Part shown: one piece after another, positions 31,574-49,059 of the stretch
How positions within the stretch are numbered: position 1 is the stretch's first letter
Layout of the letters: each line of letters begins with the position of its first letter
NCBI RefSeq assembly: GCF_900162665.1
Contig: NZ_LT727813.1
Span: 192,961 to 256,960 of the forward strand
Length of the DNA: 64,000 nt
Direction: 5' to 3'
Source of the DNA: Oceanobacillus sojae
GTDB taxonomy: Bacteria > Bacillota > Bacilli > Bacillales > Amphibacillaceae
Program-made: the position numbers and the translations under genes
Notes under the pieces: model-generated
What the model was told of the DNA's origin: nothing
What the model saw: only the letters and a program-made list of their open reading frames with translations
Databases searched by the model: none

Positions 31574-31614
31574 GGAGCAGCCTCCTTCACTCTATTTCCT
31601 TTTGAATATCCTCT

Positions 31615-33492
31615 TTAAGATAAATTCCCTGCTGTCACAATACGATGATATAAATTTCTTCCTAAGGAACCTTCCGACATAGGATACGGACCTTCGAAAT
31701 GCAGCCGCTCCTCTTCAAGCTCCTCGATTTTGCTGATTTCTCCTTCGATATATTGCTGCACACGGTACATCACCGTATCTACCCGTGCCAGCACACCGCC
31801 ATAACGAATCTCAATAATTTCCCAGCCAAAGGGTTTATTGAATGAAAACCATAGATTGCGATGGACCTTTCTTAATGTATCGACACGATTTTTCACTTCC
31901 TCTAAAGCAGGCATCATATTCTCGAGCTTACTTCGATCCTGTTTATCGTATATCTCTTTCATGCGTCTTCCTAATTCAGCTTTCACACTTAGAACATGCG
32001 ATAGCTGTTTATAGAAATCAAATAATAGATTCCAATTTGTATTTCTTTCCACTGCTTTCTCAAGCTTAGCTGTCAGCTCTGTATAATGTTTGTTCAGCGG
32101 CAAATTTTTAATATTCGCATCGTATAAACCAATCAAAATATCTTGCCATAGTAAAAGCTTGGAAGGATTGGAGGTCTGCAGATTATTCTTAGCTACACCA
32201 GGTGTTTCATCTAATTGATTGAAAAGCATAAAGTCATTAAAATCGGCTCCTGTACAAAAATGAAAACGCCGGTGCAAGTGTTCTTCTGAGATAGATTTAT
32301 GATAGGAATGTTCGGCAAATAACTGTAAAACAGGCAAAGCTGTCATCATTGGTGTTTCTGCGCCATTATCTCCCCACATGGTGAAAAAGACCTCTTTAAG
32401 CTTCTCTTTTTTACAAGCACGTAAAGCTGCTTCACTCGCTGCAAAGGCTTTTCCATAGTTAGGAGAGATTCCATTCCACGTCCACACACCCCCTGCAAAC
32501 ACAGGATCAGCTTTTAATGCTTTATGCTTTTGAATAAAGCTGCGGTAAAATTCTTCATCGTCATGATAATAATCCCAATAAACAAGCTGTGTTTCCGGAA
32601 TAGACGCTATGACGGATGCCGGAATCTCAGCATCTAAGTCATAATAACCTCCATGCTTGGAGCCGAGGCGGAAATACATATCACTCCAAATCATCGGCTT
32701 TAACTTCTTCTTATCTGTAATGGCTACAACCTCTTTAAGATGTTTGTTCATAATATCGAACCTCTTTTGGTAACCATGTTTATCAAGATATTTTCCTAAG
32801 CCAAGCTGATGTGCTTCATCCATTCCGATATGAATCCGCTTCGATTGAAATGGACAGCTTGCAGCTTCAATGAGGTGCTCTAAAAAGGTATATGTTGCCT
32901 CTGAGCCAGCCAATAAAATGTCTGCGGTATCCCTTATATCGATTGCATAATTCCATTTTAAAGCTTCTGTTAAATGAGCCAATGTCTGAATACAGGGAAT
33001 CATTTCAATTCCTAATTCTGCAGCATACTGATCACATTCCTTCAGCTCTTCCTTTGTGTATCTTCCACGCATATAACCGAAATAAGGATATTCTTTTACT
33101 TCGTATGTATCCTCTGTATATACCATCAATGTATTGAGTCCCATTAATGCTATTTTACGCAATAAATCCTTTATCCCTTCTACCTTCATTACTGCATTGC
33201 GTGAAGCATCCAGCATCGCACCATTCATTGTAAACTTTGGCTTCTCTATAAAATCAAAATCCGTTTCTGCATAAAAATGCTCCAGCCATAATCCAAGTCC
33301 CCTGAAAAAATGAATCTTCTCCTGAAATACAATTTCACCTTTTCCATTATGATTTTTCACCAAAAGAGGACCTTCTCTTTGCGTCACATGGATCCGATAA
33401 CCCTCCTGTACCAATTCAATATCCAATTCGTTCAACAGATGATTCAGTCCTTTTTTCACCTGCGCCAGCTCTCCTGTTAAGTGAAGCTTCAT
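31615..33492 (-). CDS. GH20-family beta-N-acetylhexosaminidase
   Basis: This 625-residue protein has a small N-terminal domain (1-85) and then a GH20 barrel: KFTMNGAMLDASRNAVMKVEGIKDLLRKIALMGLNTLMVYTED, the catalytic pair in RIHIGMDEAHQLGLG (D225, E226), WSDMYFRLG, and the aromatic sites VYWDYY and VWTWNG. It then has a helical C-terminal region of about 200 residues. GH20 enzymes use substrate-assisted catalysis on terminal GlcNAc or GalNAc. No signal peptide is present. It is the first gene of the nine-gene locus and adds a second exo-hexosaminidase to NagZ. Confidence 0.85.
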   Translation of the reverse strand: MKLHLTGELAQVKKGLNHLLNELDIELVQEGYRIHVTQREGPLLVKNHNGKGEIVFQEKIHFFRGLGLWLEHFYAETDFDFIEKPKFTMNGAMLDASRNAVMKVEGIKDLLRKIALMGLNTLMVYTEDTYEVKEYPYFGYMRGRYTKEELKECDQYAAELGIEMIPCIQTLAHLTEALKWNYAIDIRDTADILLAGSEATYTFLEHLIEAASCPFQSKRIHIGMDEAHQLGLGKYLDKHGYQKRFDIMNKHLKEVVAITDKKKLKPMIWSDMYFRLGSKHGGYYDLDAEIPASVIASIPETQLVYWDYYHDDEEFYRSFIQKHKALKADPVFAGGVWTWNGISPNYGKAFAASEAALRACKKEKLKEVFFTMWGDNGAETPMMTALPVLQLFAEHSYHKSISEEHLHRRFHFCTGADFNDFMLFNQLDETPGVAKNNLQTSNPSKLLLWQDILIGLYDANIKNLPLNKHYTELTAKLEKAVERNTNWNLLFDFYKQLSHVLSVKAELGRRMKEIYDKQDRSKLENMMPALEEVKNRVDTLRKVHRNLWFSFNKPFGWEIIEIRYGGVLARVDTVMYRVQQYIEGEISKIEELEEERLHFEGPYPMSEGSLGRNLYHRIVTAGNLS

Positions 33493-33897: not shown

Positions 33898-34845
33898 TTA
33901 ATTAAATTGTATTTCCTTATTATCAATAGATACAATCGGTTTTTTGATAACACAGTCAATATGTACATTTGCTTCTGTTTCTCCACCAAAGGATTTATTA
34001 CTGCCAAAAGCTATATGTACGGTCCCAAAAACTTTCTCATCTTCTAAAACATTTCCAATCAGCCGTGCCTTGCTATTTGTTCCAATTCCAAATTCAGCAA
34101 TTTTTCTCCCGGCTCCATCACCTAATAATTCAAGCAGCTCTTTACCCTTATCCCCACTAGCAGCAATTAATCTGCCATTTTCGATTTCTAAAGTTAAAGG
34201 CTCTTTTATCACACCTATGCCGGCAATGGAGCCATCAATAATTATTGTTCCATTAGCTGAGTCTTCTATTGGTGCAATATAGGCTTCACCAGAAGGGAGA
34301 TTTCCCGCCTCTCCTTTTTCTTTAAAAACACCAGTACTTTCAATTCCAGCTCTGTTTTTTATTGAAAAAGATAAGCAAGTATTTCCTTTTTTTATTTCAA
34401 CTTGATTACCCTGATTTAGTAATTCACAATATTTTGTTGTGCGTTCAACAACCTCATGATAGTCTGCTGATATAGCGCCATTCTTTAGCATATCCAAGGT
34501 AACACCTGGCATCGTTGCAACTCGTGCCCCGGCACTTGAGGCATTTTTTCTTGCATTTGTATGGGTAAGAGAATGTTTTGTGATACATAGTACAACCTCC
34601 GCTGCCTTCATTGCTTCACTTATAACCTGTGGAGGTTCTTCTCCTGATTTCAATCTGGGAGTCATTTCCATGAGCACTGTTTCATTTCTTCTTTTTAGAC
34701 CAGCCTGGTAGAATATATTGGCGATTTCTTTTAACTCTGTATCGGTAATAATTAATATTTGTTCATCCTGCTTCACAAATAAATTATTCGTTAACACACT
34801 CTCTGCCACATTTATATAATCTTGCATCCATAAACTTCCTCTCAC
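33898..34845 (-). CDS. M29-like aminopeptidase family protein
   Basis: This 315-residue protein belongs to the leucyl-aminopeptidase (M29)-like/NicX-like family. It has an N-terminal Rossmann-type half (VAESVLTNNLFVKQDEQILIITDTELKEIANIFYQAGLKRR) and a C-terminal half with the ligand-rich motifs GEAYIAPIEDSANGTIIIDGSI, AEFGIGTNSKARLIGNVLEDEKVFGTVHIAFGSN and NVHIDCVIKKP. The conserved E, H and D residues of these motifs form the metal site in the family. It probably removes an amino acid from small peptides or opens an amide ring. As the last gene of the opp-DUF1177 operon, it likely processes the imported compound. Confidence 0.75.
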   Translation of the reverse strand: MRGSLWMQDYINVAESVLTNNLFVKQDEQILIITDTELKEIANIFYQAGLKRRNETVLMEMTPRLKSGEEPPQVISEAMKAAEVVLCITKHSLTHTNARKNASSAGARVATMPGVTLDMLKNGAISADYHEVVERTTKYCELLNQGNQVEIKKGNTCLSFSIKNRAGIESTGVFKEKGEAGNLPSGEAYIAPIEDSANGTIIIDGSIAGIGVIKEPLTLEIENGRLIAASGDKGKELLELLGDGAGRKIAEFGIGTNSKARLIGNVLEDEKVFGTVHIAFGSNKSFGGETEANVHIDCVIKKPIVSIDNKEIQFN

Positions 34846-34857
34846 AAGTATATCTTT

Positions 34858-35640
34858 TTAATTACTGCTATTTAACTGTAATTGATACTTATCGATTACT
34901 TCTGCAACTTCATTTCTTGCTTCTATTAAAAGAGATAAATAATTCATTATTTTTTCATCCTGCATACGATAGACTGGCCCAGATACAGTAATAGAACCGA
35001 TAATTCCTTTATTGCTGAACAGTGGAACGGCAATCGCAATAATATCTTCCGTATATTCACTCTGGCTTCTCGCCCACCCTTGTTCACGAATCTTATCCAG
35101 CTCTGCTCTTAATTCATCCGGCTCGGTCATCGTATCGTTCGTATATTTTATTAATCTTTCAGGTGTTAAAATTCTGTCAATGATTTCTTGATCCAGATAC
35201 GCCAAAATAGATCGATAGGAAGCACCAACATACAAAGGGGCCCGGCTGCCTACAGAAACGGAAAATTTTACTTTATTTTCCGGCTCAAGCACATCAAGAG
35301 TAACAGCCTCTTCTTTGTCTAATAAGGTAAGAAATACAGATTCCCCTGTTTGACGGCTCAGCTCTTTTAAGATTGGCCGTATCAGCTGTTTGACATTAAG
35401 CCCTTCGTACATTACCGTTCCCAGCTCCCAAACAGCAAATCCCAATGAATATTTCTTCGTCACTGGATCTTTAAAAAGAAAATTATTGTTTTCCAAGGTT
35501 TCTAAAATACGATAGATTTTTGTATGATTTATCTGCATCTCATTAGCAAGCTCTCTGCCGCCCCACTTGGGCTTTTCTCTTGTAAACATTTTAAGCACTT
35601 CTAGTGCACTGTTTAACGTTTTTAACATAAGCATCCCCAA
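34858..35640 (-). CDS. IclR-family regulator of the opp/DUF1177 locus
   Basis: This 260-residue protein has an N-terminal winged helix (LNSALEVLKMFTREKPKWGGRELANEMQINHTKIYRILETLENNNF) and a C-terminal IclR effector domain (SVGSRAPLYVGASYRSILAYLDQEIIDRIL, and YTEDIIAIAVPLFSNKGIIGSITVSGPVYRM). TTG at 35640 or in-frame ATGs 6 or 12 nt later could all start it; GGGG precedes the ATGs. It stands inside the minus-strand cluster, 12 nt before the aminopeptidase gene. It is the obvious candidate to bind the two palindromes at the divergent oppB/oppA promoters. Confidence 0.88.
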   Translation of the reverse strand: MGMLMLKTLNSALEVLKMFTREKPKWGGRELANEMQINHTKIYRILETLENNNFLFKDPVTKKYSLGFAVWELGTVMYEGLNVKQLIRPILKELSRQTGESVFLTLLDKEEAVTLDVLEPENKVKFSVSVGSRAPLYVGASYRSILAYLDQEIIDRILTPERLIKYTNDTMTEPDELRAELDKIREQGWARSQSEYTEDIIAIAVPLFSNKGIIGSITVSGPVYRMQDEKIMNYLSLLIEARNEVAEVIDKYQLQLNSSN

Positions 35641-35729
35641 CTTATCATCTAGAGTCTAAAAGCATTTAGCCCTATCTTAACATATAATTTTTAATAAACA
35701 GAGTAATTACATATTTTCACACTTTTTTA

Positions 35730-36998
35730 TTACTCCGCATAAAGAAAATCTATCACAGCTGCTGCATATACCTTTGCACAAGTTATAATTTGTTCAACCT
35801 GTACTCTCTCATTGTAGCCATGAATTGTTGGCAGAAATGCCGGGCCATACTGGAGAACAGGAATATTGTAATCTCTGAAATGTCTTGCATCACTGCTGGC
35901 CCACTGCATCACTCCATATGCCTCATGCCCGGTTACAGAGGAAATATTATCTACAATCGCTTTACACACTGGATCATTGGAGTCTGTAAAATTGGCGTTG
36001 CTTCTGAATCCAAAGGGGCGAATTTTATAATCAATCCCCAGTTCTCCCAGTTTTTCATGTAAAAAGTCAGTTACTTCTTTCTCTGTAATACCAAATGGCA
36101 GCCTGCAGTCTACTTTTACTTTACAATTTTCTGGAATCACGTTTGATTTTGTTCCGCCTTCAATTGTTCCTATATTTACTGTAATATGCTCAAGAACCGG
36201 CATAAATGCTTCTCTATCCTTTTCAACTTCCCTCATATATTTTTGTGATACATGAATTAATTGCTCCACTTCATCTGGTATTGTGATTTGAATATCCCAT
36301 AATTTCTGAATTTCTCTTATAGCACGTACTGCATCTGTGATCGCATTTTTTCCGGCTAAAGGGGATAAACTTCCGTGTCCCGGTTCACCAAATACTTCCA
36401 GTTCAAACCAATAAGAGCCTTTTTGTCCAACAGTTGGATTGTATGGTGATGATGGTTCAGCAATCAAACAGCCGTCTCCATGTATGATTTCGTTTTTAAG
36501 TAACCATGGTACACCATAATCTCCTCCAGTTTCTTCATCTGGGACAATAGCAAGGGAAAGCTTTCCCGGTAATTTAATTTGAAGACGCTTTAATATGGTA
36601 AAGGCAAATATGATCCCGGAAAGACCTGCCTTCATGTCACTGGCTCCTCTTCCTAACATCCAGCCATCTTTTACTTCTCCGGAAAACGGATCGAAGTCCC
36701 ATTTTTCCAGATTTCCTGCTGGGACAACATCTGTATGGCCACAGTAGATTAAGTGCTTCCCTTCTTCCGAACCAATGCTGGAAACGAGATTATACATTTT
36801 ATCAGCCGATTCATAAAAATCTACCTCTGTTCCGAATTTTTCCAGGTAATTTTCAATGAACCTGCTTATTTCCGTGGAATCTCCGGGAGGATTTTCACTG
36901 GGAATCTTAATTAAAGAGCTGCATAAATCAATTAACTCTTCTTTACATGCTTCTACTTCATGAATAACCTTATCTTTTAATTCTTGTTTATTTACCAT
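35730..36998 (-). CDS. M20-family deacylase (ArgE/DapE type)
   Basis: This 422-residue zinc peptidase/deacylase has metal-site motifs LIYCGHTDVVPAG (about 83-95), GRGASDMKAGL, PDEETGGDYG and the closing GPAFLPTIHGYNERV with the last histidine ligand. A dimerisation domain (about 195-310) contains GEPGHGSLSPLAGKNAI. The family hydrolyses N-acyl bonds of amino acids or dipeptides (ArgE, DapE, CPG2). It starts 1 nt after the DUF1177 gene stop and precedes the IclR gene. It may deacylate the product imported by the Opp-type transporter. Confidence 0.88.
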   Translation of the reverse strand: MVNKQELKDKVIHEVEACKEELIDLCSSLIKIPSENPPGDSTEISRFIENYLEKFGTEVDFYESADKMYNLVSSIGSEEGKHLIYCGHTDVVPAGNLEKWDFDPFSGEVKDGWMLGRGASDMKAGLSGIIFAFTILKRLQIKLPGKLSLAIVPDEETGGDYGVPWLLKNEIIHGDGCLIAEPSSPYNPTVGQKGSYWFELEVFGEPGHGSLSPLAGKNAITDAVRAIREIQKLWDIQITIPDEVEQLIHVSQKYMREVEKDREAFMPVLEHITVNIGTIEGGTKSNVIPENCKVKVDCRLPFGITEKEVTDFLHEKLGELGIDYKIRPFGFRSNANFTDSNDPVCKAIVDNISSVTGHEAYGVMQWASSDARHFRDYNIPVLQYGPAFLPTIHGYNERVQVEQIITCAKVYAAAVIDFLYAE

Positions 36999-36999
36999 A

Positions 37000-37950
37000 C
37001 TATTTGATTACCTCCTTTTTACCAGGTGTTTGCAGCTGTGTCATTTTTCCATATAAGCTTTCTAAATGAGCAAACTCCTTCTTATCATAAAAAGAGCATT
37101 TATTTTCACCAAAAAGCTTTGCCACTTCTATAACAAATCTGACTGCCTGTTCTACATCGATTAAGTGGGTAGCTCCAGTACCACATCCAGCAACTGCTGT
37201 TTCCGTTGTGATCGCAATTCCAACAACCGGACTCGATGTAGCAACTGCTGGCTGAAGAATACTATTCACATGATAGACGCCATTACCATATGGAGTGATG
37301 TCCTGCGTAGTAATCGGCATGGTTACTGGAAGAATTCCGGCAGACTGGGTATAAATATGTAACAAATCATCGCTTACCTTTAGAATATAGCCTTCCTTTA
37401 TAGTAGGTGTCAGGGCAAATCCGCGATGATTTGTAATCATATTACCTTTGGTAGTATCTATTGATAGAATTCCATCCATTTCTTTTGCAACTTCATGCTT
37501 GTTCATCGTTAAAATATCCACCGGCGAATTCATAAATGGAACGGGATCGTGCGGCAAGGTTGGAGCTGTTGGACAAATATGTGTAGTTAAAATAATATCT
37601 CCATTTAAAATATCACCCTTATTTTGCATATCCAGCAATTTAGCAGCCGCCGAAATACAGGATAGTGCACCATCGCCATCGGAAACAAATCCTTTTAGCT
37701 CAGGACGTGCCCCAATTCCTCCGAGCCTACCAATAATCCCTAAAGTTGGTGCATTACCTCCTTTTAATTTACCGTTTTCTCCAGGGATGGTTATTTTAAC
37801 AAAATCAGTAGAGCCTTCATCCCCTTCTACTGTTTTTACTTCTACCTGGCTATCACCGTTTACTTTCCATAAAAATTCTTTCACATCTTCTCCTGTAACA
37901 TTTAAACTATCCATTAATTCATACACTTCCATAACATATTTTAATGACAT
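37000..37950 (-). CDS. DUF1177-family protein
   Basis: This 316-residue protein matches the DUF1177 family along its length. It shows GIIGRLGGIGARPELKGFVSDGDGALSCISAAAKL, DIILTTHICPTAPTLPHDPVPFMNSPVDI (with conserved His, Cys, Asp), ILSIDTTKGN, LHIYTQSAGILPVTMPITTQDITPYGNGVYH and ITTETAVAGCGTGATHLIDVEQAVRFVIE. Members occur beside Opp transporters, AroM and M20 genes; no reaction is known to me. The conserved THxCP and AGCGTGATH motifs look like a catalytic or metal site. GAGGAGG precedes the ATG, and the gene overlaps the oppF-type gene by 10 nt. Confidence 0.82.
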   Translation of the reverse strand: MSLKYVMEVYELMDSLNVTGEDVKEFLWKVNGDSQVEVKTVEGDEGSTDFVKITIPGENGKLKGGNAPTLGIIGRLGGIGARPELKGFVSDGDGALSCISAAAKLLDMQNKGDILNGDIILTTHICPTAPTLPHDPVPFMNSPVDILTMNKHEVAKEMDGILSIDTTKGNMITNHRGFALTPTIKEGYILKVSDDLLHIYTQSAGILPVTMPITTQDITPYGNGVYHVNSILQPAVATSSPVVGIAITTETAVAGCGTGATHLIDVEQAVRFVIEVAKLFGENKCSFYDKKEFAHLESLYGKMTQLQTPGKKEVIK

Positions 37951-38975
37951 TTTAGTTCCTCCTCTTTTTTCTTTGTTGGTATAGCTTCCAATGGATTATT
38001 TTCCAATTCTAATAAATGGCAGGATGATTGATGACCATTGCCGACATCAATTAATTTTGGAGATTTTATTTTACAAATTTCCATTGCAAATGGACATCTT
38101 TCATGAAAATGACAACCAGATGGCGGATTAATAGGACTTGGAACAGAACCGCTCAAAATAATTCTTTCTTTCACTTCATTCGGGCTCTCTTTCGGAATAG
38201 AGGATAAAAGTGCCCTTGTATAAGGGTGCTTGGAATCTTCATAAATTTCTTTATAAGTCCCCATCTCAACAATTTTTCCTAAATACATGACTGCAATCCG
38301 GTCACACATATAGCGAACTACATTAAGATCGTGTGAAATAAAAATATAAGTCAGGTTAAAATCTTTTTGTAATTTCTTTAAAAGATTAATAACTTGTGCT
38401 TGAACGGATACATCTAACGCTGAAACCGGCTCATCGCAAATAATGACATCCGGGTTCAGTGCAAGTGCCCGGGCAATATTTATCCTTTGTCTTTGACCTC
38501 CTGAAAACTCATGCGGGTATCTCCCTGAATGAGAACCTCTCAGTCCGACAACTTCTAATAATTCTTTCACACGTTCTTTTCGGGAAGTTTTATTTCCAAT
38601 TTTATGAATAACCAACGGCTCTGCAATTAACTCTCCGACTGTTTTTCTTGGGTCTAATGACGCGAATGGATCTTGAAACACCATCTGAATCGTTTTTCTG
38701 AAAACTCTTAATCGCTCTTTATTCATATCCACTAAGTTTTCTCCATTCAGCTCTACAGTACCTTTTGTCGGTGCGATCAGTTGGTTAACTAATCGGGCCA
38801 TTGTTGATTTCCCACATCCCGATTCACCAACAACACCGAGTGTCTCTCCCTGAAATACATCAAAGCTGACTCCATCTACAGCTTTTACACTTTGATCGGA
38901 CTTTTTAAAAGGGATCGGACTATCAAGATGAAAGTGTTTGGTTAAATTTCTAACTTTTAATATTGCTTCTGTCAT
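37941..38975 (-). CDS. Peptide-type ABC transporter ATPase, OppF/DppF
   Basis: This 344-residue ATPase has Walker A GVVGESGCGKST, signature FSGGQRQRINIARALAL and Walker B VIICDEPVSALDVS. It has the cysteine-rich C-terminal oligopeptide-transporter domain (NPPSGCHFHERCPFAMEICK..SCH), which in the family can hold an iron-sulfur cluster. AGGAGG lies before the ATG. It forms a heterodimer with the OppD-like product, whose gene overlaps by 26 nt, and drives the OppBC channel from the cytoplasmic side. Confidence 0.93.
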   Translation of the reverse strand: MTEAILKVRNLTKHFHLDSPIPFKKSDQSVKAVDGVSFDVFQGETLGVVGESGCGKSTMARLVNQLIAPTKGTVELNGENLVDMNKERLRVFRKTIQMVFQDPFASLDPRKTVGELIAEPLVIHKIGNKTSRKERVKELLEVVGLRGSHSGRYPHEFSGGQRQRINIARALALNPDVIICDEPVSALDVSVQAQVINLLKKLQKDFNLTYIFISHDLNVVRYMCDRIAVMYLGKIVEMGTYKEIYEDSKHPYTRALLSSIPKESPNEVKERIILSGSVPSPINPPSGCHFHERCPFAMEICKIKSPKLIDVGNGHQSSCHLLELENNPLEAIPTKKKEEELKCH

Positions 38976-39981
38976 CGACCTTCTCCTCCTTTCTATCTAA
39001 TCGATGTTCCTTCGTCTGAAAATGACAGGCTGTAAAATGTCCTTCCGCTGCTTCTATCATTTCAGGTGTCTTTTTCAAACATATTTCCTCTGCAAATGGA
39101 CACCTTGCCGCAAAAGGACATCCAGAAATGTCTAAGCTTAAATCTGGAGGACTCCCGGGGATAGTGCTTAATTCTTCCTCGCTGGATACACTTTCTGTAA
39201 TCTGTGAATCTAATAACCCCCATGTATAAGGGTGCAATGGATTATCATAGATTTCTTGAACAGTTCCTGACTCAACTACATTCCCTGCGTACATAACAAG
39301 CACTTTGTCGCAGGTTTCCCAAATCACCCCAAGGTCATGTGTAATCATGATGATAGAAGTATCAATAGAATGCTGTAAATCCTTCATTAAATTTAAAATT
39401 TGCGCTTGCACCGTTACATCCAATGCCGTTGTAGGCTCATCGGCAATTAATAGTTTAGGATTACAAGCTAAAGCAATTGCAATCATTACTCGTTGCCGCA
39501 TTCCTCCCGAAAATTCATGCGGGTACATGCTGAATCTTTTTCTTGCTTCAGGTATGCCAACTAATTCAAGCATATGGACAGCTTTTTCTTTTGCTTCTTT
39601 TCTATTCAGATGCTGGTGCGTTTTTATCGATTCTACAATTTGATTTCCAACTGTATAAACTGGGTTTAAGCTTGTAGAAGGATCCTGAAAAATCATTGAA
39701 ATCTCATTTCCGCGTATCTTTCTCATTGCCTTATCAGACAGCTTCAGCAGATCCTTATCTTCAAAAATTATTTTACCGCCTGTTATTTTTCCTGGAGGAT
39801 CCGGAATGAGCCGCAGCAATGAAGTTGCTGTTACGCTTTTTCCAGATCCGGATTCACCGACTATTCCAATATTTTCTTTTCTGTTTAATGAAAAACTGAC
39901 TCCGTTCACAGCCTTTGTTAAAGTTGAGCCTGAACGAAACTGAACCTCTAAGTTTTCCACGGTTAGCAGCATATCTGACAT
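38950..39981 (-). CDS. Peptide-type ABC transporter ATPase, OppD/DppD
   Basis: This 343-residue ATPase has Walker A GIVGESGSGKSV, signature FSGGMRQRVMIAIAL, Walker B LLIADEPTTALDVT and the OppD switch histidine (MITHDLG). The C-terminal domain has ISGCPFAARCPFAEEICLKK..CHF cysteines. It overlaps the OppF gene and follows OppC by 18 nt. Substrate choice lies with the binding protein, so dipeptides, oligopeptides or unusual amides are all possible. Confidence 0.93.
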   Translation of the reverse strand: MSDMLLTVENLEVQFRSGSTLTKAVNGVSFSLNRKENIGIVGESGSGKSVTATSLLRLIPDPPGKITGGKIIFEDKDLLKLSDKAMRKIRGNEISMIFQDPSTSLNPVYTVGNQIVESIKTHQHLNRKEAKEKAVHMLELVGIPEARKRFSMYPHEFSGGMRQRVMIAIALACNPKLLIADEPTTALDVTVQAQILNLMKDLQHSIDTSIIMITHDLGVIWETCDKVLVMYAGNVVESGTVQEIYDNPLHPYTWGLLDSQITESVSSEEELSTIPGSPPDLSLDISGCPFAARCPFAEEICLKKTPEMIEAAEGHFTACHFQTKEHRLDRKEEKVDDRSNIKS

Positions 39982-39999
39982 TCAAGTATCCTCCCTTAG

Positions 40000-40893
40000 T
40001 TATACTTTCATTTTAGGATCCAGAGCATCACGTAAACCATCGCCAAATAAATTAATGCTAAGAACGGTTATTAAAATTGACAGGCCTGAAAAGGTGGCCA
40101 TGTTTGGATTTAATACAAGAAAATCTTTTCCATCCTTCAATATGCTTCCCCACGAAGCTGTCGGCGGCTGCACTCCTAACCCCAGAAAGCTTAAAGCTGC
40201 TTCAGAAATAATGGCACCGGCAACGCTCATGGTGGCATAAACAATAATTGGGGCGAGGCTATTTGGTAATACATGCTGAAAAATAATTCTTCTATGTTTA
40301 GCTCCTAATGACCGGGTAACTTCTATAAATTCTGATTCTTTCACCCCTAGCACTTGACCACGTACAACCCTTGCAAACCCTGGTACATTCGCAATTCCTA
40401 TCGCTATAATGACATTGATGAGGCCTTGTCCCAAAACTGTCATTAATGTAATTGCCAGCAGGATAAATGGAAAAGCAAATAATCCATCCATAAATCGCAT
40501 AATAACAGAGTCTAATTTCCCGCCAAAGTATCCGGCCACTACTCCTAATAAAGACCCAATTACTGCCCCAAATAAAACGGCAGCAATTCCAACAATCAAA
40601 GAAATTCTGGAACCATAAACAATTCTGCTGAATATATCTCTCCCAAAGTTATCCGTTCCTAATAAATATCCCTGCTCACCCACACCAAGAAGTGCTTTCG
40701 TTACATCCATTGTATTTGGATTATGTGTGGCTATTAACGGTGCAAAAATAGCAGTAATGATTAATAGAAAAATAACGATTAACCCAAACGCAGCAAGTCT
40801 ATTTTTAATTAGTTTTCTAAATAAAGATTGTTCTTTTTTCCTTTTGTCTTCCATTGTTTTAACAATCTCTTCTTCAGCTTGTATTGAGGTCAT
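40000..40893 (-). CDS. Peptide-type ABC transporter permease, OppC/DppC
   Basis: This 297-residue permease has a charged N-terminal tail and the OppC opening (RKLIKNRLAAFGLIVIFLLIITAIFAPLIA). GTDNFGRDIFSRIVYGSRISLIVGI and the EAA loop EFIEVTRSLGAKHRRIIFQHVLPNSLAPIIVYA follow, then SFLGLGVQPPTASWG. Its start overlaps the OppB stop by one base (TAATG), giving translational coupling. Confidence 0.93.
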   Translation of the reverse strand: MTSIQAEEEIVKTMEDKRKKEQSLFRKLIKNRLAAFGLIVIFLLIITAIFAPLIATHNPNTMDVTKALLGVGEQGYLLGTDNFGRDIFSRIVYGSRISLIVGIAAVLFGAVIGSLLGVVAGYFGGKLDSVIMRFMDGLFAFPFILLAITLMTVLGQGLINVIIAIGIANVPGFARVVRGQVLGVKESEFIEVTRSLGAKHRRIIFQHVLPNSLAPIIVYATMSVAGAIISEAALSFLGLGVQPPTASWGSILKDGKDFLVLNPNMATFSGLSILITVLSINLFGDGLRDALDPKMKV

Positions 40894-41858
40894 TATTTTG
40901 TACCTCCTTTATTTGTAGAGTAGCTAATTTTCGGATTGACAACTTTATATAAAATATCTACAACTAAATTGACAATTACAAAAATTAAAGCAATAAATAG
41001 TACGGTGCTCTGCACTACTACAAAATCTCTTTTTTCGATGGCATCAATGATTAGAAGCCCCATCCCCGGCCAACTGAATATCGTTTCCGTCAATACAGCT
41101 CCTCCAAGTAACGAGGAAATTTGCAGACCTAATACTGTCAACAGAGGGTTAAATGCATTCTTAAAGGCATGCTTAAAAATAACAATAAATTCACTGATTC
41201 CTTTCGAACGTGCAGTTTTAATATAATCCTGTGTAATTACCTCCAGCATGCTTGATCGTGTTATCCGTGCAAATGTTGCCGTCGGTATGGTGGCAAGCGT
41301 AATACTTGGCAGGATTAAATGCTTTAGATAGCTGATAAATCCGTCTGCCATGGACCCCATCCCGGTTGCAGGAAACCAGCCTAAATTGACACTAAAATAT
41401 AGAACAAGCATGACCCCCAGCCAAAAAATTGGCATGGATACTCCGATTAAAGAGATAGTAGTAATGGAATAATCGATAAGAGAATTTTGCTTTGAAGCAG
41501 AAATTATCCCAGCCGGAACGCCTATCATAAAAGCAATGATTAATGCACTTACCGCTAAAATAACTGTATTGGGGAACCGATTGATAATTAAGTCTGTAAT
41601 TGGCTGGTTATAAGATAGTGAAACCCCAAAATCTCCTTTCAATAAATTCCCAATGTACTGCATAAATTGAATATGAATTGGTTCATTTAATCCTAAAGCT
41701 TCAGTTAGCGCCTCAACATCTTCTCTGCTCGCCTGCGGTCCAAGCATAACGGAAGCGGGGTCTCCAGGAATCATTCTCGTAATTAAAAATACGATAATGG
41801 CTACAACAAATAATGTTGGAATCATATTTATCAGTCTGCTGAAAATGTACTTTCCCAA
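40893..41858 (-). CDS. Peptide-type ABC transporter permease, OppB/DppB
   Basis: This 321-residue permease has six helices and the DppB marks FLITRMIPGDPASVMLGPQASREDVEALTEALGLNEPIHIQFMQYIGNLLKGDFGVSL. Its EAA-like loop is ITQDYIKTARSKGISEFIVIFKHAFKNAFNPLLTVLGLQI, with GMGLLIIDAIEKRD near the end. It is the first gene of the minus-strand operon (B-C-D-F-DUF1177-M20, then IclR and the aminopeptidase). It is divergent from the binding-protein gene, with palindromic operator candidates between the two. Confidence 0.93.
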   Translation of the reverse strand: MGKYIFSRLINMIPTLFVVAIIVFLITRMIPGDPASVMLGPQASREDVEALTEALGLNEPIHIQFMQYIGNLLKGDFGVSLSYNQPITDLIINRFPNTVILAVSALIIAFMIGVPAGIISASKQNSLIDYSITTISLIGVSMPIFWLGVMLVLYFSVNLGWFPATGMGSMADGFISYLKHLILPSITLATIPTATFARITRSSMLEVITQDYIKTARSKGISEFIVIFKHAFKNAFNPLLTVLGLQISSLLGGAVLTETIFSWPGMGLLIIDAIEKRDFVVVQSTVLFIALIFVIVNLVVDILYKVVNPKISYSTNKGGTK

Positions 41859-41877
41859 TTTTTATCCCTCCAATTTT

Positions 41878-41893
41878 ATTCATTATGTGAATC
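41878..41893. promoter_or_regulatory. Candidate IclR operator, oppB side
   Basis: ATTCATTATGTGAATC reads on the other strand as GATTCACATAATGAAT, nearly the same as the site at 42055. It lies 20 nt upstream of the oppB-type start, inside the expected leader. The repetition of the same palindrome at both divergent starts suggests one regulator. Confidence 0.6.
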
Positions 41894-42054
41894 AATGGTT
41901 TGGTATATGAATTAAAAAACAGTTTAGCACTTGAAAATATATTTGTAAATATAAATTTGTCAAATTAATTTATTTAATTAGAATTTACAAAAAACTATTT
42001 ACATTATATTACTAGTTATGCTAGATTTATTATTAATTCTTTATTCGAATTACT

Positions 42055-42071
42055 GATTCACATTATGAATC
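42055..42071. promoter_or_regulatory. Candidate IclR operator, oppA side
   Basis: GATTCACATTATGAATC has perfect 5-bp arms (GATTC/GAATC) around ACATTAT and ends 25 nt before the binding-protein gene start. It matches the oppB-side site at 15 of 16 positions when that site is read on the other strand. Confidence 0.6.
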
Positions 42072-42096
42072 AAATAAACCAAAAAGGAGAGAAAAA

Positions 42097-43710
42097 ATGA
42101 AATTGCTCAATTTAAAGTCGTTGCTTTTAGTCTTTGGGTTTATATGTATCCTTTTTACTTTAGGAGCTTGTTCCTCTAATGGGGATGCAGACTCTTCAAA
42201 AAATGGCAATGCCGAAGATGAGTCAGGGGAACCGGTAGACGGAGGAACCTTAAACATCGGACTTTCTTCCAATCCTAATACATTAGACCCTGTACGCTAT
42301 ACAGGTGTTTATGAATCTCAAATTATGAGATCAATTGGAGATACACTTATCGTTTATAATAAAGATTTTAGTGATTTTGAACCGTCCATCGCTACAGAAT
42401 GGGAAACCTCAGAAGATTTGAAATCATACACCTTCAAGTTAAGAGACGATGTCTATTTTCAACCTGGGGAATATCAAGATGGCAGACAGATGACAGCTGA
42501 GGATGTGAAATACAGCCTTGAACGATCAGCTAATGAATCTGTTATGAACAGGTTGACTGGAGTAGATAGTGTAGAAGTAAATGATGAATTTGAAATAACC
42601 ATTCACCTGACAGAACCAAATGCCGCATTACTCGCTATGTTGACAGATAAAGGAAATATTATTGTTCCGAAAGAAGAAGTGGAAGGCTGGGGAGAGCAAT
42701 TTGGTTCTCATTTAGTGGGCACCGGGCCATTTCAATTGAAAGATTGGCAAACAGATCAGAAAGTTGATCTGGAAAGACACGATAATTATTGGGGAGAAAA
42801 ACCGCACCTTGATAGTGTTGTTTATACCATCATTTCAGACCCTAATATGATGACAAACGCGCTCCGATCAGGTGATATTGATATTGCTACAGATATTAAA
42901 GGACAAAGCAGAGAAGTTATTGAGCAGGATCCAGAACTCGAACTACTTTCTGAGCCAGGCTTGTCAATTACTTATCTTGATCTGAATAACCAGAAAGGGC
43001 CGACTGCTGATCCAAAAGTCCGGGAAGCAATCTACAAGGCTACAAATGTAGAAGAGCTTGTTTCCGGAGCAAATCAATATGGAGGTGCTTCAGTTTCCTA
43101 CGCACCTATCCCTCAAGAATCATGGGGATATACAGAAGAACTGGAGCAATACAAACCGGAATATAATCCTGAAGAAGCGAAAGAAATTTTAGCTGAAACC
43201 GAATATGCAGATGGATTTAGTACAGAAATCTATGTTGGTGAAGCCCGTGTTCCAACTGCTACTATTTTCCAGAATCAAATGAAAGAAAATTTAAATATAG
43301 ATGTAGAAATTAAAGTAGTTGAATGGGGAACACTTAGTGACACAGTTTCCAAGAATAATGCTCCTATGTCTATTGGCGGCTGGTCCTGGTATCCAGACCC
43401 GTACTTCTTCCTGAATCAGCTGTTCCATTCTGATCAAATCGGCTCGTTAGGTAATGGAAGAGGATATTCTAATGAAGAAGTAGACAAGTTATTGAATCAG
43501 GCACTTACAGAAAGTGTCGATCAGGGTGAAAGAGCAGAGCTCTATCAAGAAGCAATAAAAATTATCATGGGAGACTATTCCCGAATTGAAATTGACAATC
43601 AAGATTCAACTGCAGCTATCAGCCCTAAAGTGAAAGGCTTTGAAATATCTGCTGACATGTCCATTAATGTAGTAAGTCCAAATGGCGCAAATGTTTGGCT
43701 GGAGGAATAA
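42097..43710 (+). CDS. Peptide-type ABC transporter substrate-binding lipoprotein, OppA/DppA family
   Basis: This 537-residue lipoprotein has signal peptide MKLLNLKSLLLVFGFICILFT, lipobox LGAC, then an acidic Ser/Asp/Gly linker (24-48). The family-5 solute-binding domain includes DGGTLNIGLSSNPNTLDPVRYTGVYESQIMRSIGDTLI, YTFKLRDDVYFQPGEYQDGRQMTAEDVKYSLER and GTGPFQLKDWQTDQKVDLERHDNYWGEKPHLDSVVYTI. AAGGAGAG precedes the ATG. It heads the plus-strand arm of the divergent locus and brings substrate to the OppBCDF-type complex. A possible stem-loop with one mismatch (43731-43765) follows the stop. Confidence 0.92.
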   Translation: MKLLNLKSLLLVFGFICILFTLGACSSNGDADSSKNGNAEDESGEPVDGGTLNIGLSSNPNTLDPVRYTGVYESQIMRSIGDTLIVYNKDFSDFEPSIATEWETSEDLKSYTFKLRDDVYFQPGEYQDGRQMTAEDVKYSLERSANESVMNRLTGVDSVEVNDEFEITIHLTEPNAALLAMLTDKGNIIVPKEEVEGWGEQFGSHLVGTGPFQLKDWQTDQKVDLERHDNYWGEKPHLDSVVYTIISDPNMMTNALRSGDIDIATDIKGQSREVIEQDPELELLSEPGLSITYLDLNNQKGPTADPKVREAIYKATNVEELVSGANQYGGASVSYAPIPQESWGYTEELEQYKPEYNPEEAKEILAETEYADGFSTEIYVGEARVPTATIFQNQMKENLNIDVEIKVVEWGTLSDTVSKNNAPMSIGGWSWYPDPYFFLNQLFHSDQIGSLGNGRGYSNEEVDKLLNQALTESVDQGERAELYQEAIKIIMGDYSRIEIDNQDSTAAISPKVKGFEISADMSINVVSPNGANVWLEE

Positions 43711-43730
43711 TATTCAAGAATAAAATTACA

Positions 43731-43765
43731 AAAGAAAAGTAGAGTTTATTTCTCTGCTTTTCTTT
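43731..43765 (+). terminator. Stem-loop after the binding-protein gene
   Basis: AAAGAAAAGTAGAG (43731-43744) and CTCTGCTTTTCTTT (43752-43765) pair over 14 positions with one G-U. The 3' arm is T-rich but lacks a separate U-tract. It may attenuate reading into the amidohydrolase genes. Confidence 0.45.
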
Positions 43766-43776
43766 CGTATAGTGTG

Positions 43777-43859
43777 TGTTCAAAAAGGCTGATAAATAGG
43801 ACCAAGAAGCTCATCAACGAAGAAATTCGCCGTGTCATCTTTATTGGACTTTTTGAACA
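43777..43859. repeat. Palindromic MITE-like repeat, short copy (83 bp)
   Basis: It begins TGTTCAAAAAGGCTGATAAA and ends TTATTGGACTTTTTGAACA, so the ends are inverted repeats. It shares TAGGACCAAGAAG, AGAAATTCGCCG and CTTTATTGGACTTTTTGAAC with the 147-bp copy at 53388, but lacks that copy's central palindrome. No open reading frame is inside. It resembles non-autonomous palindromic elements of Bacillaceae genomes. Confidence 0.7.
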
Positions 43860-43895
43860 TCCTCTTATATAAAACTTTGAAAGCAGGTGTAAAAA

Positions 43896-45005
43896 ATGAC
43901 CCAAACAGCTATTACAAATATTAATACTTATTCCTCTGAATCAGGCAGTTTTTCCAAAAAGACACTCATTATAAAAGATGAGAAAATCGATGCTATTTTG
44001 CCTGGAAACCATATTCCTAACCATACTACTGTTATTAATGGCTCCGATTTGTTTCTGACTCCCGGTTTTATTGATACTTGTTCGCAAATTGGATTGACAG
44101 AAAAAGGAATTCGCTGGGAGGGTAACGACAGCACAGAGCCAGATGAAATTAAAAGCGAAAAACTGCATGTATTGGATGGTATTTATCCATTCGATAAAGC
44201 CTTTAACGATGCTGTTTCTTCTGGTGTTACAGCTGCTCACATTGTTTCTTCAGCAGAAAGTATTGTCGGAGCACGCACTGCTGTCATTCATACCAATGGT
44301 CCTACCGTTGAAGATATGGTTCTCCATAAAAAACTGGGGTATTCCTATTCCATGGGAGATGTCCCCAAGAAGACATTTTGGGAACGGACCCGTACTCCCT
44401 TAACCCGCATGGGGATTGCTCATAAAATCCGGCGATCTTTAACTGATTTACAAAAAGAAAAGAACCTTAAAGAGGAACTCTTATTTATTCGCTGTCATCG
44501 CGCAGATGACATTGCCACTGCCTATAGAATTGCAGAGGAATTTGGCATAGATTTTGTATTTATCCATGCTACGGAATACAGAAAATTAAGAAATCCGATA
44601 TTAAACTATCCTAAAACAATTGTTGCAGGTCCTTATTTTCAGCCAATTGAAAGGGCAGAGCTAAAAACTCTGGATCCGGCTGACTACTATTTCTTCCATA
44701 AACAAGCAATAAACTATACATTTTCTACAGACCACCCTACTAATTCTGTAACCCATCTGCAATTAGAGGGCTCTCTTGCTGTAAAAAATGGTGTCCCGGA
44801 ACAGCAGGTATTAAACGCTTTAACAAAAGATGCTGCCAAACTATTAAATATCGAGCACAAAACTGGTGATATTCAGAAAGGTTTATTTGCTGACCTTGTT
44901 TTATGGAATGGGCATCCTTTAAGTCTGACTTCAAGAGCAGTTCGTACGTTTATAAAAGGAAAAGAAGTTTACAGGGAGGGAGAAAAAAATGCTTCATATA
45001 TTTAA
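43896..45005 (+). CDS. Amidohydrolase-superfamily protein with altered metal motif
   Basis: This 369-residue protein has the amidohydrolase fold (imidazolonepropionase/allantoinase-like branch) and is a paralogue of the next gene. Where active members have HxH after strand 1, it reads PGFIDTCSQIGL, giving C62 and Q64. Other metal-site segments survive: LFIRCHRADDIA, FIHATEY and FSTDHPTNS. It keeps family residues GIRWEGNDSTEP. Loss of both strand-1 histidines suggests altered or no hydrolase activity, or a regulatory partner for the second amidohydrolase. The start has AGCAGGTG upstream. It overlaps the next gene by 17 nt. Confidence 0.8.
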   Translation: MTQTAITNINTYSSESGSFSKKTLIIKDEKIDAILPGNHIPNHTTVINGSDLFLTPGFIDTCSQIGLTEKGIRWEGNDSTEPDEIKSEKLHVLDGIYPFDKAFNDAVSSGVTAAHIVSSAESIVGARTAVIHTNGPTVEDMVLHKKLGYSYSMGDVPKKTFWERTRTPLTRMGIAHKIRRSLTDLQKEKNLKEELLFIRCHRADDIATAYRIAEEFGIDFVFIHATEYRKLRNPILNYPKTIVAGPYFQPIERAELKTLDPADYYFFHKQAINYTFSTDHPTNSVTHLQLEGSLAVKNGVPEQQVLNALTKDAAKLLNIEHKTGDIQKGLFADLVLWNGHPLSLTSRAVRTFIKGKEVYREGEKNASYI

Positions 45006-46164
45006 AAACGCAACAATTTATACAATGAATGAAAAGAATACCATATTAGAGCACGCAGATTTATGGATTAAGAATGGAAAAATTATTAAAGTTGGAGTGA
45101 ACACAGACATCCCTGAAGAAGCAACGGTAAGAGATTTGGATGGCCTACCAATTACTCCTGGATTAATTGATATTCATACACATGTTGGAATTTGGGGAGA
45201 AATTAATGAACGAATCAATGATGCCAATGAATACTCTGAGCCCTATACCCCCATGATGTCTGCAATAGATGGCATTGATATTAATCATTTTTCATTTGAT
45301 CTGGCAAGAAAAGGAGGCGTAACTACTGTTCAAACAGGGGCTGGCAGTGCTAATCCTATTGGCGGTGTATGGACCATTTTAAAAACAGGCGGAAATTACC
45401 TGGAGGAAATGCTAGTTACAAGGAAAAGCGGGCTTAAAGGAGCTCTTGGAGAAAATCCTAAAAATACATTTGGTCAGAATTATCATAAAAAGCCGTATAC
45501 CAGAATGTCAATTGCCAATATCATTCGTGAAGGGTTTGAAAAAGCAAGTCAACTGACAAACGAAGAAAAAAAAGAAGCATTAAATAACTATTCAGAGTTA
45601 TCGCCATTTATAGAAGTACTCGATCATCAAATGCCATTGCATTTGCATGCCCACCGGGCCGATGATATTGCTACAGCTATTCGAATAGCTAAGGAATTTA
45701 ATATTCAATTATCACTGGAGCATTGCACCGAAGGACACTTCATGCTGGAAGCTATTAAGAAAAGCGGTGCAAAAGTTACGCTAGGCCCATTTATGCTGCC
45801 TGCAACTAAATATGAAACCAGAAACCTTACTCCAGCAGCTCCCAAATTATTTCATGAAGCAGGAATACCCTTTGCAATTATGACAGATCATCCTTTCATT
45901 CCGATTAATTACTTAATTATATGTGCTGCAGAAGCAGTCAAATATGGTTTAGATGAGACGGCTGCGTTAAGAAGCATCACTATCGAAGCAGCAAAATTAA
46001 CTGGAATAGCGCATCGCGTCGGCTCACTGGAGGAACAAAAAGATGCAGATTTTGTTATATGGTCTCACCATCCGTTCCATACCTATGCCAATGTTTTAGA
46101 AACATATATCAACGGGGAAAACTATTACTCTAAGGAGACGGAAAAATCATGTATCCAACCATAG
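44989..46164 (+). CDS. Amidohydrolase (imidazolonepropionase-like branch)
   Basis: This 391-residue amidohydrolase has a complete metal set: GLIDIHTHVGIWGE (H63, H65), LHLHAHRADDIATAIRIA, LEHCTEGHF and IMTDHPFIP (aspartate). It resembles a group of uncharacterised bacterial cyclic-amide or dipeptide hydrolases rather than HutI or dihydroorotase. GGGAGGGAG precedes the ATG inside the upstream gene. It overlaps the AroM gene by 16 nt, so all three plus-strand enzymes are co-translated. With the transporter, it likely hydrolyses an imported amide. Confidence 0.85.
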   Translation: MLHIFKNATIYTMNEKNTILEHADLWIKNGKIIKVGVNTDIPEEATVRDLDGLPITPGLIDIHTHVGIWGEINERINDANEYSEPYTPMMSAIDGIDINHFSFDLARKGGVTTVQTGAGSANPIGGVWTILKTGGNYLEEMLVTRKSGLKGALGENPKNTFGQNYHKKPYTRMSIANIIREGFEKASQLTNEEKKEALNNYSELSPFIEVLDHQMPLHLHAHRADDIATAIRIAKEFNIQLSLEHCTEGHFMLEAIKKSGAKVTLGPFMLPATKYETRNLTPAAPKLFHEAGIPFAIMTDHPFIPINYLIICAAEAVKYGLDETAALRSITIEAAKLTGIAHRVGSLEEQKDADFVIWSHHPFHTYANVLETYINGENYYSKETEKSCIQP

Positions 46165-46835
46165 GCGTTATTACTATCGGGCAAACCCCAAGGGTGGATA
46201 TGATCCCGGCTATGCAAAATATTTTCCCCGATAATACAGCTATCGTGGAAAGAGGTGTACTTGATAATAAAACAGAAAAAGAAATATTAAATTTATCTCC
46301 AAATGAAAATCAGACTGTTTTAGTTTCTCGTTTATCGAATGGAGATAAAGCAGTTATTGCCAAGGAAAAAATACTTCCTTTTATACAAGATTTAATTAAT
46401 GAATTAAATCTGTCAGATACAACAATGATATTATTGGCTTGTACTGGTCAATTCCCTAAGTTCATCAGTAATGTTCCTTTAATTTATCCTGATTATCTGT
46501 TAAACCATGTAGTAAAAGGAGTCATCCAGGAGGGAATAATCGGAGTGGTTATCCCCCTTCCAGAACAAAAGAACTCCATCATCAAAAAATGGGAAACAAT
46601 AGGATTAACAGCTATTCCAAAAGCTTGTTCTCCTTATAATTTTAATAAGTCAGAGTTAATCAAAGCAGCAGATGAATTGGAAAAACTGCCAATAAAGGCT
46701 ATTGTACTTGATTGTATGGGTTATACAGAAGAAATGAAATCTATTGTTCAAGAAAATACCAATAAGATGGTTTTCTTGGCAAGAAACGTTATCTATCAAA
46801 CGATGGCTGAATTGTCTTCATTTCAAAGTGAATAA
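46149..46835 (+). CDS. AroM-family protein
   Basis: This 228-residue protein matches the AroM family: the opening TIGVITIGQTPRVDMIPAM, then ERGVLDN, MILLACTGQFP (C98), IGVVIPLPEQ and VLDCMGYTEEMK (C189). The two cysteines in ACTG and DCMGY resemble the catalytic pair of Asp/Glu/hydantoin racemases, suggesting a racemase-like role. AroM was named from its place beside aroL in E. coli, but its function is not established. Here it is the last gene of the amidohydrolase operon. Co-occurrence with DUF1177 and Opp genes points to catabolism, not aromatic synthesis. Confidence 0.82.
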   Translation: MYPTIGVITIGQTPRVDMIPAMQNIFPDNTAIVERGVLDNKTEKEILNLSPNENQTVLVSRLSNGDKAVIAKEKILPFIQDLINELNLSDTTMILLACTGQFPKFISNVPLIYPDYLLNHVVKGVIQEGIIGVVIPLPEQKNSIIKKWETIGLTAIPKACSPYNFNKSELIKAADELEKLPIKAIVLDCMGYTEEMKSIVQENTNKMVFLARNVIYQTMAELSSFQSE

Positions 46836-48917: not shown

Positions 48918-48958
48918 ACCATACTGTAGTCAAAATGAAGATTAAGGTATTCCTGTCT

Positions 48959-48995
48959 GATTCTAAGAGGAATGAAAAATCTTCCTCTTAGAATC
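48959..48995 (+). promoter_or_regulatory. Intercistronic hairpin between phnD and phnC
   Basis: Arms 48959-48972 and 48982-48995 are exact 14-bp reverse complements with a 9-nt loop. TATAGG follows, not a U-tract. It probably protects phnD mRNA or limits reading into the transporter genes. Confidence 0.6.
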
Positions 48996-49059
48996 TATAG
49001 GACACACTTTATCTCCGCAGATTCCTGCTAATCCTTAAACAAAAAAGGAGATTTCCATT

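Follow-up and report, generated by a model that had tools for sequence, protein, structure and literature searches.

Among described systems, the gene neighbourhoods of cyclodipeptide oxidase (CDO; a nitroreductase, CDOA, together with CDOB, PF19585) come closest to the locus analysed here. In the part available to us, a 2024 paper (PMC11055893) reports that the neighbourhoods of non-CDPS CDOs are enriched in PF01177, DUF917 and AroM proteins and in Opp/OPT transporters, that many contain peptidases, and that purine metabolism or secondary metabolites are the roles proposed for these clusters. The same part reports racemase-like predicted structures for AroM, a family described there as lacking experimental characterisation. 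The word DUF1177 does not occur in the text of that paper, and the available part of another CDO paper (PMC11760959) contains nothing on catabolic neighbourhoods. Our locus, which combines a DUF1177 gene with an aroM gene, occupies positions 33898-46835 of a 64,000-nt stretch of Oceanobacillus sojae DNA (GCF_900162665.1, NZ_LT727813.1, 192,961..256,960, forward strand). This whole stretch is called the window below, and its genome is labelled G000.

The window locus resembles the CDO clusters, as far as the available part of PMC11055893 describes them, in having AroM, a peptide-type ABC transporter and peptidases, while its clostridial relatives share PF01177, DUF917 and an OPT transporter with them. 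By contrast, CDO is absent from the window genome and from the Bacilli loci, and the amidohydrolase pair (AH1/AH2) and short M29-like protein (M29L) of the window locus are unnamed in that part. Of the accessory genes of CDO clusters, AroM and Opp are present in the window; PF01177 and DUF917 were confined to relatives whose loci are not of the Bacilli divergon type. In the open-licence literature DUF1177 is almost unmentioned, occurring once, in a single paper among 5.39 million; of the papers listed, PMC11055893 alone concerned this neighbourhood, and we did not find the DUF1177 divergon, its control region, the DUF1177 fold or the AH1/AH2 pair described. The first-pass annotation had called the system undescribed, a term that we narrow: the CDO-centred neighbourhoods of PMC11055893 overlap it, and DUF1177 is unnamed there.

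Twelve intact open reading frames (ORFs) make up the locus, eight on the minus strand and four on the plus strand, with the point of divergence at 41859-42096 (Table 1). Leftwards from 41858, the minus arm encodes DppB, DppC, OppD, OppF, DUF1177, an M20 protein, an IclR regulator and M29L; from 42097, the plus arm encodes a family 5 binding protein, AH1, AH2 and AroM. The ORF map and Pfam thus confirm the earlier description of twelve genes in two divergent arms with an Opp-type transporter. Pfam and NCBIfam searches covered ten of the twelve proteins, OppD and DppB being named through homologues and position, and among these ten none reached the cut-off of a substrate-naming NCBIfam equivalog; the DUF1177 and AroM assignments are unambiguous. 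Neighbouring genes overlap at five of the ten within-arm junctions (DppB/DppC by 1 nt, OppD/OppF by 26, OppF/DUF1177 by 10, AH1/AH2 by 17 and AH2/AroM by 16), DUF1177 and M20 are spaced by 1 nt, and the widest within-arm gap, between the binding-protein gene and AH1, is 185 bp.

The proposal that these genes serve one pathway is well supported. The same divergon, with protein identities of 90-99%, is found in O. neutriphilus and O. sojae, and its order recurs across Bacillaceae genera. The 33 loci found with the DUF1177 protein of the window (seeded loci), from genera that include Neobacillus, Psychrobacillus, Sporosarcina, Metasolibacillus, Amphibacillus and Robertmurraya, are mostly close relatives by construction, and we therefore sampled 398 Bacillota genomes as well. 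Partners were counted with bit-score thresholds that we set ourselves, within nine genes of DUF1177 for named families and within six for newly clustered ones. In the seeded loci, each counted separately, Opp permeases, M20, IclR and M29L each accompany DUF1177 in 26, AroM in 24, AH2 in 16 and AH1 in 15.

DUF1177 was found in 46 of the 398 genomes and AroM, at E<=0.001, in 45, so that each occurs in about one genome in nine. Strong AroM matches (E<1e-50) were found in 40 genomes, 35 of which also encode DUF1177, against 4.6 expected (Fisher p 3.7e-35); these 35 genomes span 23 families and are phylogenetically non-independent. With the five weak AroM genomes added, DUF1177 is shared by 37 of 45. 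Such a co-occurrence, together with the same gene order in other genera, indicates that the set did not arise by chance and, with the neighbourhood counts, bears out the earlier suggestion of one conserved system. DUF1177 occurs in one of 299 Pseudomonadota genomes, the centre genome of that sample itself; the Escherichia coli control genome has AroM and no DUF1177, and two archaeal control genomes, Haloferax volcanii and Sulfolobus acidocaldarius, gave DUF1177 matches.

We then mapped the neighbourhoods of 40 of the 46 DUF1177 genomes (phylum loci; G000, G013, G114, G145, G215 and G374 were omitted), giving, with the seeded loci, 73 mapped loci, or 74 with the G215 neighbourhood taken later as L124. 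In the 40 phylum loci the genes near DUF1177 encode AroM (26), a PF01177 racemase (20), a PucR regulator (17), DUF917 (16), an OPT transporter (14), M29L (14), Opp permeases (10) and a family of about 280 aa (8). A peptide-type transporter, Opp or OPT, is near DUF1177 in 29 of 33 seeded and 24 of 40 phylum loci, or 53 of 73. Neither AH1 nor AH2 is present in any of the 40 phylum loci.

The family of about 280 aa, represented by L080:8422-9282, has no Pfam match and adjoins DUF1177 in eight of the 73 mapped loci (L064, L065, L068, L069, L076, L080, L082 and L084). Other DUF1177 neighbourhoods differ more. In Zobellella (L032:5628-10963), whose genome has a second DUF1177 copy, the gene lies with an IclR regulator, an OPT transporter, a class V aminotransferase and an S51 peptidase. 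An alphaproteobacterial DUF1177 (L034:1167-5835) is found beside two luciferase-like monooxygenases and a GntR regulator, with the usual partners absent. In three Bacillota loci (L095, L096 and L099) DUF1177 lies beside genes that, by eye, are PHP-type hydrolase-like and RapZ-like, with no transporter or racemase partners, and its role there is perhaps different.

AroM was expected to have a racemase-like cysteine pair, and C98 and C189 are indeed identical in all 51 aligned AroM sequences (the window and all 50 locus matches). The AlphaFold2 model (pLDDT 94, pTM 0.89) matched arylmalonate decarboxylase, Asp and Glu racemases, maleate isomerase and allantoin racemase in Foldseek, with a best E of 3e-7 and TM of about 0.6-0.7; among the 50 matches listed, 48 carry the names of racemases, decarboxylases or isomerases with this fold or are proteins of unknown function (4ix1, 2dgd), and two are others. 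A profile comparison of AroM with the PF01177 proteins near DUF1177 in Clostridia gave a probability of 96.8% with both cysteines aligned. These results support the assignment of AroM as a two-cysteine protein with a predicted Asp/Glu-racemase fold, in agreement with the predicted structures in the available part of PMC11055893. AroM is like the Asp/Glu racemase superfamily in its predicted two-domain fold and paired cysteines and unlike it in having a Pfam family of its own and, at the N terminus, an invariant TIGQxPRxD motif; its NCBIfam score, 187.8, is just below the cut-off of 198. In Neobacillus mesonae (G406) the mapped divergon (L013) is without an AroM gene, and a weaker match (E 8.5e-30) lies outside it, near 2049384 of contig 1.

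PDB searches found no solved sequence relative of DUF1177 and its profile matched none of the neighbouring families, and homology by sequence was given up as a route to its function. The structural model (pLDDT 80, pTM 0.85) was matched by Foldseek to M17, M28 and M20/DapE enzymes and to M28-fold glutaminyl cyclases (probability 1.00, best E 9e-9, TM about 0.5), and the best 50 of 906 matches are titled aminopeptidases, DapE, glutaminyl cyclases or 'protease 1/3/4', the last of which we take to be the malaria M17 enzyme. Modelling thus supports a predicted fold of the co-catalytic aminopeptidase class (M17/M28/M20). DUF1177 is like these metallopeptidases in that predicted fold and unlike them in that the TM is only about 0.5 and sequence similarity was not found. 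Its invariant residues include D93, H124, D165 and H227, which are candidate stand-ins for the usual metal-ligand set. The model therefore supports the fold class but not the metal site, several of the loops with many invariant residues being of low confidence.

The two amidohydrolases have the same nearest solved sequence relative, 3ooq, which is titled only 'amidohydrolase' and which we take to be the Thermotoga maritima protein TM0814. In AH2 the HxH motif is intact in 17 of 17 sequences (the window and 16 loci, two partial or weak matches having been dropped from the alignment), and H63, H65, H220/H222, H245 and D300 constitute the amidohydrolase superfamily set. In AH1 the HxH motif is absent from 16 of 16 sequences (the window and 15 loci) and replaced by D-[TAS]-C-S-[QS]; H201, H224 and D279 are retained, and R199 occupies, in the 3ooq alignments, the position of AH2 H220, the first His of the second HxH. 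AH1 without AH2 was never seen in the 73 mapped loci; the one locus with AH2 and no AH1, L027, has another AH2-like fragment where its contig ends. Unlike 3ooq, these proteins come as a gene pair of which one member lacks HxH, suggesting that the overlapping genes encode an enzyme and a degenerate paralogue that may form a heteromer. To count both amidohydrolases as ordinary enzymes, as before, overstates the case, since HxH is lost from the first. Such a conserved pair of enzyme and pseudoenzyme poses a separate clean question.

M29L was aligned from the window and 40 of 53 locus matches (those of at least 400 bits; 13 weaker ones were omitted), and E187, E251, H277, H295 and D297 are identical in 41 of 41 sequences. 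The metal ligands of M29 aminopeptidases are E, E, H, H and D plus a ligand tyrosine, and NicX has an H/H/D iron triad. The PF02073 match covers the later part of the profile, and the alignments of M29L with NicX, its nearest solved sequence (7cn3, E 6e-5), and with M29 aminopeptidases, of which AmpS comes next, likewise lie in the later part of these proteins. At E187, E251 and H277, AmpS has E, E and H, and the window protein has K284 in the column of the AmpS tyrosine; since E/E/H/H/D is kept and the tyrosine is replaced, we read M29L as a probable aminopeptidase-type hydrolase with a changed site. It differs from M29 aminopeptidases by this missing tyrosine and a shorter N-terminal part, and from NicX by the absence of its pattern, the NicX H column being E251.

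Among the 20 genomes scoring highest for M29L, 16 have DUF1177 (p 2.5e-13), a figure favoured by a profile built from DUF1177 loci, while the next score band shows no association (6 of 65 genomes). Ten neighbourhoods of M29L relatives outside DUF1177 loci, five of them sampled with Pfam, consist mostly of unrelated genes; a PucR gene adjoins the relative in L133, and DUF917-like genes are near that in L138. The M20 protein is closest, among solved structures, to a putative acetylornithine deacetylase and DapE. For the binding protein, 54 solved sequences with mixed ligand names were found at E<=1e-20. These relatives are too mixed for the substrate to be deduced from binding-protein homology.

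The 238-bp intergenic region between the arms has features of a common control region. It contains one conserved promoter-like site per strand (TTTACA with an extended -10), promoter-like matches in the region as a whole not being enriched over shuffles. Between this site and the start codon of each arm lies a pair of palindromes, TTCAnATnnTGAA, 20 bp apart. In 26 intergenic regions (25 related loci and the window) the palindrome has 59 matches with <=1 mismatch, against 1.4 in dinucleotide shuffles, an enrichment that is partly circular because the motif was defined on the same intergenic alignment, and one observed in loci that are related to each other. The 20-bp phasing was not part of the definition, and 25 of 60 neighbouring spacings are exactly 20 bp at <=2 mismatches. 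The short intergenic regions of L020, L021 and L028 have zero or one palindrome, perhaps an effect of ORF start calls. The position of the palindromes fits repression through IclR, the presumed protein partner of these sites. The motif is not enriched across the whole window (18 found, 14.0 expected), and its use as a genome-wide regulon marker was rejected because it is too common (54 exact matches on both strands, 10 for the reversed control).

In Clostridia, DUF1177 and AroM are found with PF01177 racemases, DUF917 and OPT transporters, and some of these neighbourhoods reach CDO itself. In L025 (Blautia) and L083 the CDO genes belong to the gene run that contains DUF1177. L124 has a DUF1177 fragment where its contig ends, with the CDO genes about 7.6 kb away on that contig. 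Other CDO loci in the sample have relatives of the M29L, DUF917, PF01177, Opp and PucR genes without DUF1177. The DUF1177-AroM-M29L locus of Blautia ends in a fused CDO, a 290-aa protein with nitroreductase and PF19585 parts (L025:13276-14148).

Taken together, these features lead us to propose that the divergon is catabolic, induced by its substrate and directed at a peptide-like compound. Our tentative first choice for this compound is a 2,5-diketopiperazine, or something closely related whose alpha-carbon is D-configured or can be epimerised. In the pathway that we infer, this compound, probably one that ordinary peptidases handle poorly, would enter through the OppBCDF-type permease with its family 5 binding protein. 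The amide ring would be opened, or the first amide cut, by a metal-dependent hydrolase, either AH2 (together with the degenerate AH1 where present) or DUF1177. AroM would invert the alpha-carbon by two-cysteine acid/base chemistry, thereby making both epimers usable, and M20 and the M29-like protein would hydrolyse the linear product to amino acids. The IclR protein may repress both arms at the tandem palindromes, which lie a short way downstream of the two promoters, and repression would be lifted once the substrate or an intermediate appears. That the enzymes break amide bonds, as suggested before, is extended to DUF1177 by its predicted fold and weakened for AH1 by its lack of HxH. The cyclic or modified dipeptide named in the first-pass annotation remains plausible and has gained outside support, as the substrate is read from clostridial racemases, DUF917, peptide transporters and three CDO loci, in line with the enrichment in the available part of PMC11055893.

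Several observations weigh against this proposal. All tracked partners are absent in 10 of the 40 phylum loci (L071 and L099 lie on short contigs) and in the seeded L034, and some Bacilli loci of otherwise similar make-up lack AH1/AH2, AroM or M29L, so a fixed linear pathway is not established. CDO genes are present in only three of 74 DUF1177 loci; PF19585 was not found in the window genome, nor CDOA or CDOB in Bacilli-type loci; and at the genome level the link of CDO is non-significant both with DUF1177, present in three of 10 CDO genomes (p 0.097), and with AroM (p 0.069). The DUF1177 profile matched none of the local PF01177, DUF917, AroM, M20 (two groups), M29L, AH2 and 280-aa families, its loops rich in invariant residues have a pLDDT <50, and its canonical ligand set is only a candidate. 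Dipeptides, haem, nickel and opines are among the ligands after which solved relatives of the binding protein are named.

A serious rival, if a somewhat doubtful one, is a linear modified dipeptide, with a D-residue, an isoaspartyl bond, an N-acyl group or a cross-link, that would be degraded by unusual dipeptidases, deacylases and an epimerase with no ring opening. Opp and OPT are peptide-type transporters, M20, M29L and the predicted fold of DUF1177 are peptidase-like, and in Zobellella an S51 peptidase and an OPT transporter accompany DUF1177. Moreover, 10 of 25 Bacilli-type loci (L002-L024, L028 and L033) lack the AH pair, the strongest candidate for ring opening. The recurrent PF01177 (Asp/Glu/hydantoin racemase) and DUF917 neighbours and the occasional CDO point instead to heterocyclic amides. 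PF01177, DUF917 and PucR-type regulators near DUF1177 and the weak similarity of AH2 to imidazolonepropionase would also suit a hydantoin, thiohydantoin or purine-derived heterocycle, which AroM or PF01177 would racemise, DUF917 (S-Me-THD-like in Pfam) or AH2 would open and M20 would relieve of its N-carbamoyl group. We hold this to be quite improbable, as the window divergon has neither DUF917 nor PF01177, its regulator is IclR and not PucR, its transporter is of the peptide type, and M20 passes the ArgE/DapE cut-off with no carbamoylase assignment.

That NicX is the best solved match of M29L, and that the AroM model also matches maleate isomerases, might suggest degradation of a pyridine-like aromatic, with M29L as a NicX-type ring-cleaving dioxygenase and AroM as a maleate-isomerase analogue. 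At the positions of E187, E251 and H277, identical in 41 of 41 M29L sequences and matched by E, E and H in AmpS, NicX carries F, H and L; on these ligand residues we reject NicX-like ring cleavage by M29L and find the idea as a whole scarcely credible. We give equally little credence to neighbours brought together by chance or by loosely related functions: the 10 phylum loci with no tracked partners and the close M29L relatives in genomes without DUF1177 would fit, whereas the order conserved across genera, the co-occurrence over 23 families and the common control region argue against it.

If the proposal of a cyclic-dipeptide divergon is taken to its full extent, DUF1177 would be the founding family of a new metal-dependent hydrolase of M17/M28 fold, opening the ring of cyclic dipeptides or of related cyclic amides, AroM would invert stereochemistry, and Bacilli would add an obligate amidohydrolase/pseudoenzyme heteromer, the whole being a widespread Bacillota pathway for cyclic dipeptides as nutrients; we regard this version as unlikely. 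Cyclic dipeptides are common both as signals of microbes and in food, and to our knowledge few bacterial genes for their degradation are known, so such a pathway would be useful. DUF1177 and AroM are linked here with one another, with uptake of the peptide type, with predicted racemase and aminopeptidase folds and, through their neighbourhoods, with CDO, which turns two blank families into testable enzymes.

Table 1. Features of the DUF1177/AroM divergon in window coordinates
Feature	Position	Strand	Evidence
M29L, short M29-like protein, 315 aa	33898..34845	-	PF02073 E 9.7e-15, residues 127-285
IclR-family regulator	34858..35640	-	PF01614/PF09339; NCBIfam cut-offs not reached
M20 ArgE/DapE-family deacylase/peptidase	35730..36998	-	TIGR01910 280.2 bits, cut-off 217.6
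DUF1177 protein, predicted co-catalytic aminopeptidase-type fold	37000..37950	-	PF06675 E 9e-137
OppF/DppF ATPase	37941..38975	-	PF00005 and PF08352 (oligo_HPY)
OppD ATPase	38950..39981	-	ORF; homologue in the same place in related loci
DppC permease	40000..40893	-	PF00528 and PF12911
DppB permease	40893..41858	-	ORF; homologue in the same place in related loci
Operator-like tandem palindromes TTCAnATnnTGAA, before dppB	41879..41911	.	41879-41891 exact; 41899-41911 <=2 mismatches; 20 bp apart
Promoter-like TTTACA-17-TAAACT with TG, for the minus arm	41921..41949	-	Conserved in intergenic alignment
Promoter-like TTTACA-18-TAGATT with TG, for the plus arm	41998..42027	+	Conserved in intergenic alignment
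Operator-like tandem palindromes, before the binding-protein gene	42037..42069	.	42057-42069 exact; 42037-42049 <=2 mismatches; 20 bp apart
Family 5 solute-binding lipoprotein (SBP_bac_5)	42097..43710	+	PF00496 E 3e-88
AH1, degenerate amidohydrolase, HxH replaced by D-[TAS]-C-S-[QS]	43896..45005	+	3ooq E 9e-51
AH2, amidohydrolase, HxH intact	44989..46164	+	3ooq E 3e-77
AroM-family protein, predicted racemase fold, C98 and C189	46149..46835	+	PF07302 E 4e-67

The genes flanking the divergon in the window were not found around it in the other genera compared, as judged by ORF sizes and order. On the right are a HAD hydrolase and, at 48027-49836, a phosphonate-type ABC binding protein and an ABC ATPase. 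On the left, GH3 and GH20 (family 20C) glycosidase genes directly adjoin the divergon at 29984-33492, and ORFs matching GH3/GH20 in size also follow it in O. neutriphilus and O. sojae.

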